Shown: piece after piece, positions 2,654-53,606 of the stretch
Layout: the number at the start of each line of letters is the position of its first letter
How positions within the stretch are numbered: position 1 is the stretch's first letter
Assembly (NCBI GenBank): GCA_026391455.1
Contig: JAPLEH010000066.1
Location: forward strand, 62,001 to 126,000
Direction of reading: 5' to 3'
DNA from: Bacteroidota bacterium
Lineage (GTDB): Bacteria; Bacteroidota; Bacteroidia; Chitinophagales; Chitinophagaceae
Length of the DNA: 64,000 nt
Made by a program: the position numbers and the translations under genes
Notes under the pieces: model-generated
What the model was told of the DNA's origin: nothing
Databases searched by the model: none
What the model saw: only the letters and a program-made list of their open reading frames with translations

Positions 2654-3568
2654 ATGGCAAAACAAATCGAAGATTTTGACGCAAACCTGGCAGGCGAAGA
2701 AGGCAAGACAGAAGAAACTAAAACGAGCTGGTTCAAACGCATAAAAAAGGGCATCAACACCAAGACCTCTGAGAAAAAGGAAACCCCCGAAGGCTTATGG
2801 GTAAAATGCCCGAGCTGCAATTTTATATGCACCGTTACCGAACTGCGGGAACATTTATTTGTATGCCCCAAGTGTACCTTCCATCACCGCATCAACAGCA
2901 GCGAATACTACGAGATCCTCTTCGATAATAACGAATTCACCGAACTATTTGAGAATATCCGCAGTAAGGATTACCTGGAATTTACCGACCTGAAGCCCTA
3001 TAAAAAAAGGCTGGAAGAAATATGGTCGAAGACCAGTCTTACCGATTCCATGCGGGTAGCGGCCGGCAAAGTAGGTGGACACGATATCGTGATTGCCTGT
3101 ATGGATTTTGAATTCATCGGCGGATCATTGGGCAGTGTGATGGGTGAAAAATTTTCACGCGCTGTGGATTATGCCATCGAACACAAGATACCCTATATGG
3201 TGATTAGCAAAAGCGGCGGGGCCCGTATGATGGAAAGCGCCTTCTCCCTGATGCAACTGGCCAAAACCAGCGGTAAACTCTCCCAATTGAGCGATGCCAA
3301 ACTTCCCTATATATCTTTACTCACCGACCCCACATTTGGTGGTATCTCTGCTTCCTTTGGTATGCTCGGCGACCTGAATATTGCCGAGCCCGAAGCATTG
3401 ATCGGTTTCGCTGGCCCCCGGGTTATCAAAGAAACCATTAAAAAAGACCTGCCGGAAGGATTCCAACGCAGTGAATTCATTCTCGAACATGGATTCCTCG
3501 ATTTCATTGTGCCCCGGAAAGAACTAAAGAATAAACTGGCTACCGTGCTGGGGTTGTTTAAAAATTAA
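2654..3568 (+). CDS. accD: Acetyl-CoA carboxylase carboxyltransferase subunit beta
   Basis: The 304-residue protein is the beta subunit of the acetyl-CoA carboxylase carboxyltransferase, which moves CO2 from biotin to acetyl-CoA in the first step of fatty acid synthesis in the cytoplasm. It has the four-cysteine zinc ribbon (CPSC at about residues 56-59 and CPKC at about 75-78), then the crotonase-like fold with [11 protein letters not shown], the oxyanion-hole glycines of [10 protein letters not shown], and [16 protein letters not shown]. Length and order are normal for the family. A TATATTTG box 18 bp upstream supports the ATG at 2654. accA is not in the window. Confidence 0.96.
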
Positions 3569-49787: not shown

Positions 49788-51098
49788 CACTAGCGTTGCG
49801 TTGTTTTTTATAAAAGTTCTTTGAAACACTTGATGGGTCTATGTTTGAGCGAATTGAAAGTCGGCGTTGATTTGAAAAAAATCCAGTCTTTCTTTGTTGC
49901 AAATCGTTGATAATGAACAAAGGGAGAATGGTTTTTACACAGATTATGGACTTTGCATCACAGGATATTTTCAAAGTTTGTGTAAACAGGTATAAAGGAA
50001 ATTACAAATCAAAGGATTTCTCTTGCTGGAAACAATTTTTGTGTATGGCTTTTGGGCAATTAACCCATCGGGAAAGCATGAGCGATACACTTCTTTGTTT
50101 AAAATTGAACGCAGATAAACTCTATCACCTTGGCATCGGCAAAGCAGTTAATAAATCCACTTTGTCACGGTCAAATGAAAACAGGGACTGGCATATTTTC
50201 CAGGACTTTGGGCTGAAGCTAATCGAAGAAGCGAAAAGATTGTATGAAGGCGACAATCAATCAGAACTCAATCTTAAAGGGCGTGTATTTGCGTTGGATT
50301 CCACTACAGTTGACCTTTGTCTGGAAGTTTTTTTGTGGGCACCGTTCCGTTCAACAAAAGCAGCGGTTAAAATTCACACACTGCTTGATTTAAAGACATC
50401 CATACCGGAGTTTATTTTTATTTCCGAAGGCAATGTCCATGATGTGAAAATAATGGATTTAATCCCGGTTCAAAAGGGCAGCTATTACATAATGGATAAG
50501 GCTTACGTGGATTTTGAACGCCTGTTTTCAATCCGGCAGCAGCGGGCATATTTTGTTGTAAGAGCGAAGGAGAACATGCAGTTCAAACGCATCACTTCAA
50601 GAATACCTGATAAAACCGCAGGTGTACTTTGTGACCAGGATATAATGCTTACAGGAATTAACAGCAGCAAGAGATACCCTGAACAATTAAGGCGTATCAA
50701 ATTTCATGATTCAGAATACAACAGGACATTTGTTTTTCTGACCAATAATTTTAAAATAAAAGCACAAACGGTTACGCAGCTTTATAAACACCGTTGGGGT
50801 GTTGAGTTGTTTTTCAAATGGATAAAGCAGAACCTGAAAGTGCAGTCTTTCTGGGGCTTTAATGAGAATGCTGTTAAAACACAAATATGGATTGCCATAT
50901 CCGTTTATGTGCTGGTATTAATTGCAAGAAAAAAACTAAAGCTGATAAATTCACCCTATGAAATCATACAATACATCAGTCTTGCACCCTTTGAAAAAAG
51001 AGCAATACATGAGGTGTTTCTAAACATAGAAAATCAAGATGTCAAAGAACAAAAATGCATTCAATTGAAAATCATATAACTAAGACGCAACGCTAGTG
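49788..51098 (+). mobile_element. IS4-family insertion sequence, 1311 bp
   Basis: Terminal inverted repeats CACTAGCGTTGCGT (49788-49801 and 51085-51098, 14 bp perfect) bracket a single transposase gene. The 9-bp target duplication ATAAAAGTT is at 49779-49787 and 51099-51107. The element sits in the middle of an attC-like site, between the genes at 47705-49624 and 51239-51946, and looks intact. Confidence 0.93.
49913..51079 (+). CDS. IS4-family transposase (DUF4372 N-terminus)
   Basis: The 388-residue DDE transposase has an N-terminal DUF4372-like domain (SWKQFLCMAFGQLTHRESMSDTL) and the catalytic core: first Asp in VFALDSTTVDL, second in YIMDKAYVDFE, and the YREK signature YKHRWGVELFFKWIK with the catalytic Glu. 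ATG at 49913 is preferred over the TTG at 49907. The frame is intact, so the element may be active. Confidence 0.92.
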   Translation: MNKGRMVFTQIMDFASQDIFKVCVNRYKGNYKSKDFSCWKQFLCMAFGQLTHRESMSDTLLCLKLNADKLYHLGIGKAVNKSTLSRSNENRDWHIFQDFGLKLIEEAKRLYEGDNQSELNLKGRVFALDSTTVDLCLEVFLWAPFRSTKAAVKIHTLLDLKTSIPEFIFISEGNVHDVKIMDLIPVQKGSYYIMDKAYVDFERLFSIRQQRAYFVVRAKENMQFKRITSRIPDKTAGVLCDQDIMLTGINSSKRYPEQLRRIKFHDSEYNRTFVFLTNNFKIKAQTVTQLYKHRWGVELFFKWIKQNLKVQSFWGFNENAVKTQIWIAISVYVLVLIARKKLKLINSPYEIIQYISLAPFEKRAIHEVFLNIENQDVKEQKCIQLKII

Positions 51099-52000: not shown

Positions 52001-52253
52001 TTACCCCAACCAATTTCGCATTTTTTATAATACTAGTTTATAATCATTACGATACAAAAATATTTGCCATTGAATTTACTTGCGCAAATACCCGATCCTA
52101 AACGACTATAAACGTTTATAATCGGATATACGTTTTCCGAACATACACCCCTCCCCCCACCCCCACAATACCAAAAACATAGTATTTTTTCCTCCAAGAA
52201 AATTTCTCAAAAATTAGCCTACGTATTTTTTGTATTTCATTCAACCAATTCCC

Positions 52254-52440
52254 TATTTTTACTCCGCGTTATATTGGTATAGGGCAGGACGAAACCTGCT
52301 CTTAGTAAGTTAAGTTGCAGGCTTTTTTATGCCTGCAACTTTCTTGGAAAATACGGTCCTGCACCCCCGTGCAAGTCTGTAATGGGCTTGCTGCCCTATA
52401 CCGGTGTAACGCAACGGGACAGGCAGGACCGTATTTTTTT
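52254..52440 (+). ncRNA. Predicted structured RNA with two interleaved stems
   Basis: A TATTTTTAC box (52254-52262) is followed by a 22-bp stem P1 (52266-52287 with 52391-52412, three G-U pairs) and a 15-bp perfect stem P2 (52348-52362 with 52423-52437), whose 3' arm runs into a T run (52434-52440) as in a terminator. A third hairpin (52312-52341, 11 bp) sits inside P1. P1 and P2 interleave, so they form a pseudoknot or exclude each other. The 69-residue gene starts 24 bp after the T run. A Bacteroidota 6S RNA (Rfam 6S-Flavo) or a leader RNA are options; I could not match a known class. Confidence 0.6.
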
Positions 52441-52463
52441 CTGCCACTTCAAACCCCTACACT

Positions 52464-52673
52464 ATGGCAGCACCAAAACCCACACATCAACAATTGCTCG
52501 AAGCCCTCCTGGATGGAAATGATGATCTCTTACTGCTGGATAATCTCATCGATGCCGGCGAGGCCGCCTTCCACGTTATCTATCACTCCGCCATGGAAGA
52601 CCATTTGAAATTGGTATCCTTTCAGATCGAAAAACGTTTTAAGCTGTACGCTACTTTGCTACAGAAAGGATAA
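52464..52673 (+). CDS. Small orphan protein (69 residues)
   Basis: The product is helical and acidic in its first half (LLEALLDGNDDLLLLDNLIDAGEAAF) and basic at the end (KRFKLYATLLQ), with no signal or membrane segment. No family was recognised. It starts 24 bp after the T run of the structured RNA, so a read-through or attenuation link is possible. The ATG at 52464 has no strong Shine-Dalgarno, as usual in this phylum. Confidence 0.5.
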   Translation: MAAPKPTHQQLLEALLDGNDDLLLLDNLIDAGEAAFHVIYHSAMEDHLKLVSFQIEKRFKLYATLLQKG

Positions 52674-52903: not shown

Positions 52904-53323
52904 TTTCAGATTCAACCATATGCTTGTCCGTTTGCCTGTAATTCGTTTCAGATGCAACCAAATACACGTCCGATTGACCCTAATTCGTTTCAGATGCAAC
53001 CAAATACACGTCCGATTGACCCTAACTCGTTTCAGGTGCAACCAAATACACGTCCGATTGACCCTAATACATTTCAGATGCAACCAAATACATGTCCGAT
53101 TGACCCTAACTCGTTTCAGATGCAACCAAATACACGTCCGATTGACCCTAACTCGTTTCAGATGCAACCAAATACACGTCCGATTGACCCTAATTCGTTT
53201 CAGGTGCAACCTAATACACGTCCGATTGACCCTAATTCGTTTCAGATGCATCCAAATACACGTCCGATACACGTAAATCTTCATCAGATCGACTGTAAAC
53301 CTCGTCCGATCCGATCAAATTCA
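52904..53323. repeat. Minisatellite of 42-bp units (8 conserved, 2 degenerate)
   Basis: TTTCAG marks each unit at 52904 (degenerate), 52946, 52988, 53030, 53072, 53114, 53156, 53198 and 53240, with a degenerate tenth from 53282: a fixed 42-bp step. The unit core is GATGCAACCAAATACACGTC. A plus frame is open throughout (SFQMQPNTRPIDPN repeats, TTG start 52889), but two other frames are open as well, so coding is doubtful. Confidence 0.85.
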
Positions 53324-53476: not shown

Positions 53477-53606
53477 CCTGCCTGCCATGCCTACCGTGCC
53501 TACCGGCAGGTAAAACGGCACCCTATAACTATCAGGTCTATATTCTAAAATATCAACAGCCCCGTACATCCTACACCGTACATCGTAGATCGTACATCGT
53601 ACATCT
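53477..53606. repeat. GC palindromes and inverted TGTACGR satellite
   Basis: TACCTGCCTGCC and CTACCGGCAGGTA-like palindromes are followed by ATCGTACATCGTACATC units (53562-53606), the reverse orientation of the 577-609 satellite. It fills the gap between the minisatellite and the DoxX-like gene. Confidence 0.7.

Follow-up and report, generated by a model that had tools for sequence, protein, structure and literature searches.

Structured leaders that bring a toxin-type gene under antisense control are already known as a kind of regulator, and parts of the element reported here can be recognised in several described systems. In phages P1 and P7, the c4 antisense RNA lies upstream in the same transcript as its target and is complementary to the downstream translation start. 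Our element is also a short structured upstream RNA, complementary in its homologues to a translation start, but the likeness is one of principle only: it has no match to the c4 family (RF01695) or to any other in Rfam, and the phage RNA is processed and acts in trans. The symE/symR locus of Escherichia coli is a type I toxin-antitoxin system in which SymE is controlled by the antisense RNA SymR (PMC1891008). Most homologues of our element share with this system a SymE-family protein (PF08845) downstream and potential antisense pairing at the start region. SymR, however, is transcribed separately from the opposite strand, whereas our element has its antisense strand within the transcript itself, upstream of the gene; this strand in cis is found in 15 of 17 homologues and is non-specific in the genome studied, where the protein encoded at the locus is not SymE. 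The nearest studied precedent is the timP mRNA of the timPR type I system, a toxin mRNA whose mutually exclusive folds control translation, the pseudoknotted fold being the active one. It differs in coming from Enterobacteria, in encoding a small membrane toxin and in having a separate sRNA, TimR, and the published abstract describes no copy of the start codon at the 5′ end of the RNA (PMC11228461).

The element lies in a 64,000-nt window, meaning the whole stretch of DNA that was analysed, from a Chitinophagaceae genome, and is a structured RNA that matches no Rfam family. A scan of the whole window returned no Rfam match at the gathering threshold, in line with the first-pass annotation, which had recognised no common riboswitch class, and relaxed thresholds applied to the copies and homologues gave only noise. 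This includes 6S-Flavo, Flavo-1 and Bacteroid-trp, which are also structured RNAs of Bacteroidota and which the element matches at neither threshold. The covariance models of 6S-Flavo (RF01685), a comparison that the annotation had proposed, and of c4 found nothing in the window, the copies or the homologues, and a tRNA and tmRNA search found none.

Architecture of the element and its copies in one genome

All parts of the element lie on the + strand. Two long stems had been reported for it, and both were recovered as inverted repeats. P1 pairs 52266-52287 (P1a, the predicted 5′ end of the transcript) with 52391-52412 (P1b) over 22 nt, 86% of them Watson-Crick and the remaining three pairs G-U. 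P2 pairs 52348-52362 (P2a) with 52423-52437 (P2b) over 15 nt at 100% Watson-Crick and runs into a terminator-like T run at 52434-52440. The coordinates confirm that the arms are interleaved. The stretch 52266-52443 folds at -81.3 kcal/mol, against -50.0 +/- 4.1 in 200 dinucleotide shuffles (z -7.6), none of which folds as stably.

Several smaller features are set between and around these arms. A small hairpin, GCAGG-N6-CCTGC (52284-52299), seen in the fold and included as helix 3 in the covariation test on the copies in the genome, overlaps the top of P1, and another, AAGTTGCAGGC-T6AT-GCCTGCAACTT (52312-52341; helix 4), is near-invariant in those copies and has a different sequence in homologues. 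P2a contains the conserved core CGGTCCTGC (52354-52362) and is followed by ACCCCCGTG (52363-52371), near-invariant in alignments of copies and homologues alike. The P3 hairpin (GCAAGTC/GGCTTGC, 52371-52391; helix 6), with a conserved TAATG in its loop, leads into P1b, which an invariant CAACGGGA (52412-52419) separates from P2b in the alignments. CCCGT at 52366-52370 could pair with ACGGG at 52414-52418 (P4), a pairing too invariant for a covariation test. Bases 3′ of the T run can pair with the first bases of P2b to give P5 (52422-52445), with arms GGCAGGA (52422-52428) and TTCTGCC (52439-52445); P2 and P5 exclude each other because bases are common to both.

Upstream of the stems, the -7 box TATTTTTA (52254-52261), of the Bacteroidota TANNTTTG type, begins exactly 12 nt before P1, where the first-pass annotation had seen it. 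A TANNTT(T/C)N box begins at exactly this distance from P1a in 29/29 loci, and from this fixed spacing transcription is predicted to start at P1a or very close to it. Further 5′, a conserved CCTACGTA block (52218-52225), for which most copies have the palindrome CTACGTAG, is a possible promoter or operator element. The inverted repeat AATACC-N8-AGTATT (52167-52186), mostly AATACC-N8-GGTATT in the alignment of 13 copies and absent from L017, L018 and L020, may be an operator or an upstream terminator, its role being unknown. At the other end, a conserved start region of the CCTACACTATG type (52455-52466; CTTACACTATG in most copies) opens a 69-aa ORF at 52464-52673, the small gene already noted right after P2. 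Its protein is not SymE and has no Pfam or NCBIfam match. An AlphaFold model predicts two long helices (pLDDT 81), a fold search with it found nothing significant in the PDB, which is to be expected of a two-helix protein, and the function is unknown. We do not claim a toxin identity for this protein, which would be inferred only from the company that the leader keeps.

A whole-genome search with a 192-base stretch found 13 copies of the element, every one of which leads into a small paralogous ORF. Most begin with the upstream inverted repeat, and the order that follows is the CTACGTAG block, -7 box, P1, near-invariant hairpin, P2a, ACCCCCGTG, P3 with its TAATG loop, P1b, CAACGGGACAGG, P2b with the T run, and the ATG of the small protein. 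Twelve copies are complete, and L020 has lost the 5′ part of P1. L017 has a stop inside its ORF, and L012 carries, about 1 kb 3′ of a complete RNA and ORF, a second ORF of the same family (3180-3404) with the CTTACACTATG start and no match to the RNA model. Given these losses and the 16 paralogous proteins in the genome, which are only 36-72% identical to that of the window, the family is old, expanded and partly decaying. SymE genes without this leader RNA upstream also exist, one of them in this genome (G000:C32:10309-10464).

Across the 12 complete copies, 94.6% of cells pair in the covariation test, and 15 pairs have changed on both sides, against 9.4 in shuffles; when the partner is slid by 1-3 columns, pairing falls to 32-45%. 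Compensatory change is found mostly in P1 and in P3, the latter being 100% paired with 4 pairs changed on both sides. Within the genome P2 shows changes in just one of its two arms at any pair, and more distant relatives were therefore needed.

The surroundings of the element contain other features. A minisatellite just 3′ of the 69-aa ORF, at 52904-53268, repeats a 42-bp unit (TTTCAGATGCAACCAAATACACGTCCGATTGACCCTAATTCG, 91% matches) 8.7 times and can be read through in several frames; the corresponding relative place in L011 is taken by a different repeat array, which is GC-rich. A further array, with 6.1 copies of the 7-bp unit CGTACAT, occupies 53563-53605. A 390-aa ORF that by eye resembles an IS4-type transposase is found at 49907-51079, about 1 kb 5′ of the element.

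Homologues and compensatory change

Homologues occur in Flavobacterium, Pinibacter and other Chitinophagaceae. Twelve stretches were found when genome contigs were searched with a core pattern; they belong to Flavobacterium, Pinibacter, Chitinophagaceae bacterium 26-R-25 and one MAG. A covariance model run over 149 relatives matched only two other genomes, one of them real; applied to 396 genomes of the family, the model found loci in three more genera as well as additional ones in Pinibacter. The element is rare, being found in 5 of 300 Flavobacterium genomes by the pattern search and in 7 of the 396 genomes of the family when only matches with the core are counted. The search pattern fixes CAACGGGA and ACCG, and invariance there is partly by construction in the loci that it found; the covarying pairs lie outside these fixed letters, and loci found by the model are free of this bias. 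Some candidates were set aside: L023 in G145, which is without the ACCCCCGTG core and precedes a gene that by eye resembles an aldehyde dehydrogenase, and the weak model matches L090-L093 and L098, in which no core was found. Phage, plasmid and viral collections gave no match with the queries tried.

Most homologues outside the genome precede SymE toxin genes; PF08845 scores above its cut-off in the first four ORFs examined behind these RNAs (L022, L025, L050 and L052) and at L087. At L085, on the other hand, the gene behind the RNA encodes a relative of the window's protein (BLASTP E 5e-11), and at L095 it encodes a third small protein with no significant family match. The same RNA core thus stands before three unrelated downstream proteins, and it is nearly invariant across them and across Flavobacteriia and Chitinophagaceae. 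The first codons, M-x-x-TEK/R, are common to SymE and the L085 protein, which suggests, as an inference, that the leader and first codons were joined as a unit to different proteins. Two observations can be added on individual loci. At L088 the SymE frame is interrupted by a frame change and looks like a pseudogene, with the RNA and its start-codon pairing intact. In Chitinophagaceae bacterium 26-R-25, the gene upstream of the SymE-type leader (L022:1803-2753) matches the candidate defence family PDC-S42 (E 1.6e-90).

With these relatives in hand, P1, P2 and P5 are seen to covary across 24-29 loci. In P1 the first 8 pairs covary over 29 loci, and over 24 loci P2 has changed on both sides at pairs 6-9. 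At position 4 of P5 an A-U pair in the window is replaced by U-A or U-G in homologues (24 loci). The P5 arms of the window correspond to GGCTAAAA/TTTTAGCC in L057, GGCTGAAA/TTTCAGCC in L052 and GGCAC/GTGCC in L095. The last of these loci has compensated both P2 and P5, its inner P2 helix being different yet paired (CGGCGTG/CACGCCG). The first-pass annotation had proposed a pseudoknot or a switch between two folds, selected for pairing, and would have been refuted by homologues lacking compensatory changes. The opposite outcome was obtained, with compensation in P1, P2, P3 and P5. Its inference of selection on RNA structure is upheld, although the evidence for this is the compensatory change and not the G-U pairs on which it had relied. 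Both interleaved helices are kept in this way, which meets the criterion for a pseudoknot. The conserved pairing of P1 and P2 would, however, be compatible with alternation as well; sequence cannot settle the matter because the pairs fit either, and simultaneous formation is not shown.

The terminator-like T run is less constant. At least seven T follow P2 in 20 loci, the one in the window among them (the 12 complete copies of the genome, 7 Flavobacterium ones and L095), but the run is broken in 9 of the 17 homologues outside the genome. Termination is therefore not universal in the family, and the 175-nt product that had been envisaged is possible but not shown.

Pairing at the start codon

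The opening nucleotides of the RNA recur in the homologues immediately 3′ of the AU of the downstream start codon, so that P1b can pair with either copy. In L050, for instance, the RNA opens with GACTAACA, P1b ends in GTGTTAGTCA and the gene starts with ATGACTAACAC. The corresponding RNA start, P1b end and gene start are GAACTTCA, GTGAAGTTCA and ATGAACTTCAC in L057, GCATTACA, GTGTAATGCA and ATGCATTACAC in L087, GCTAAACA, GTGTTTAGCA and ATGCTAAACAC in L065, and GACTTCCA, GTGGAAGTCA and ATGACTTCTAC in L085. Of the 17 loci outside the genome, 15 have a 9-11 bp match between P1b and the downstream start codon; the exceptions are two Pinibacter SymE loci, L052 and L059, which lack it. The duplex averages -13.5 kcal/mol, against -7.8 with swapped partners, and 0 of 5000 permutations was as good. 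The RNA 5′ end, the 3′ arm of P1 and the start codon change together in seven sequence versions. The homologues are few and related within versions, and the independent evidence therefore amounts to seven versions and not 15 points.

The genome of the window behaves differently. Here the pairing of P1b with the start codon is weak and non-specific (-7.5 vs -7.4 kcal/mol; 2164/5000 permutations), and a conserved TTACACTATG stays constant while P1b changes between copies. A test for P1b or P1a pairing specifically with the ORF of its own locus was negative in these copies. The start-codon pairing appears not to have been kept in this genome, where it may have been either lost or replaced, and this half of the mechanism is therefore inferred there by homology only.

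Folding gives some indication of how the two partners of P1b compare. With RNAfold, which was used without pseudoknot terms, the P1 fold is the more stable one in 13 of 14 loci, leading the start-codon fold by 0.3-9.9 kcal/mol, and the less stable one in the remaining locus. In folds without the first 20 nt, P1b shifts onto the start codon at four loci (L049, L050, L055 and L057), whereas at L053 and L065 it does not.

A proposed two-state leader and its rivals

At slightly better than even odds (about 0.52), we read the element as the structured 5′ leader of a small-protein mRNA that acts in cis as a two-state switch. Transcription would start at P1a. State A would combine the P1a:P1b helix with the P2a:P2b helix, either together as a pseudoknot or one after the other, and would leave the start codon free. 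In state B, P1b would leave the 5′ end to pair with the start codon and P2b would refold as part of P5; the start-codon helix and P5 are nested, and they would hide the start codon. The 5′ end of the RNA, as a copy of the start-codon region, would thus compete with it for one antisense strand, and the helices would exclude each other as sets, P1 with P2 against P1b:start codon with P5. The leader would stay open while the 5′ end holds P1b and close when that hold is lost, for which 5′-end trimming, a bound factor or the protein itself are candidate triggers. Sequence comparison shows the pairing of P1, P2, P3 and P5, and that of P1b with the start codon outside the window's genome only. Transcription of the RNA, the translation block in state B, the default state and the trigger are inferred, there being no expression or probing data. 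For the 13-copy family only the P1/P2/P3/P5 part is shown in this way, and function is inferred from the homologues.

The main rival takes the element for a trans-acting antisense RNA, that is, an RNA antitoxin. P2 and the T run would end most transcripts at about 175 nt, and P1b would pair with the start codon of the read-through mRNA, making the leader both the 5′ part of an mRNA and its own antisense RNA. The control of E. coli SymE by antisense RNA is a precedent (PMC1891008), in homologues P1b is complementary to the start codon, and the window and 19 further loci have the uninterrupted T run that termination would need. We still regard it as unlikely, since that run is broken in over half of the outside homologues, P1a would sequester P1b in the short RNA, and the start-codon match is non-specific in the window's own genome; P5, moreover, is conserved with its 3′ arm beyond the terminator, which points to the full-length mRNA. 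A P2 that looks like a terminator in most loci would also suit a transcription attenuator or ligand riboswitch, in which the invariant core (ACCCCCGTG, the TAATG loop and CAACGGGA) binds a molecule or protein to choose between termination and read-through. The constancy of this core across two bacterial groups and three protein families is what such a binding site would predict, but in the loci found by the pattern search it is partly a product of that pattern. Without an Rfam riboswitch match, a metabolite suggested by the downstream genes or a universal T run, and with the start-codon covariation unexplained, an attenuator seems improbable. A leader peptide read from the TAATG loop was also considered and rejected, as the frames, read by eye, do not end consistently.

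Little weight can be given to a type III-like antitoxin that binds the downstream protein directly. A pseudoknot-like RNA encoded just 5′ of a small toxin-like gene does recall such systems; described type III antitoxins, however, are tandem RNA repeats, of which there are none here, and the same core precedes three unrelated proteins. We find it harder still to credit that the element is the end of a mobile element or a single-stranded DNA structure rather than an RNA. Its 13 dispersed copies and patchy species distribution would fit, but promoter, structure and ORF are kept together in fixed order, the phage, plasmid and viral collections gave no match with the queries tried, and the divergence of the paralogous proteins means that the copies are not recent insertions.

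Whether the two-state leader represents a new class is, in our judgement, evenly balanced. It would be a portable toxin-type mRNA leader of Bacteroidota whose 5′ nucleotides copy the start-codon region and share with it one internal antisense strand, with a coupled P2/P5 exchange, at least three unrelated small proteins downstream and 13 copies in one genome. We know of no other arrangement that joins a start-codon copy at the 5′ end to such an exchange, and targeted searching of the literature on SymE with Bacteroidota found nothing relevant. To our knowledge, RNA control of toxins is little described in Bacteroidota. The work describes a structured RNA family that is not in Rfam, together with a model that finds its members, and its predictions are sharp and testable by compensatory mutations. 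It also provides grounds for toxicity assays on a group of small orphan ORFs. If the two-state reading is right, these bacteria would possess a toxin-type mRNA that carries an antisense strand as well as a 5′ decoy of its own.
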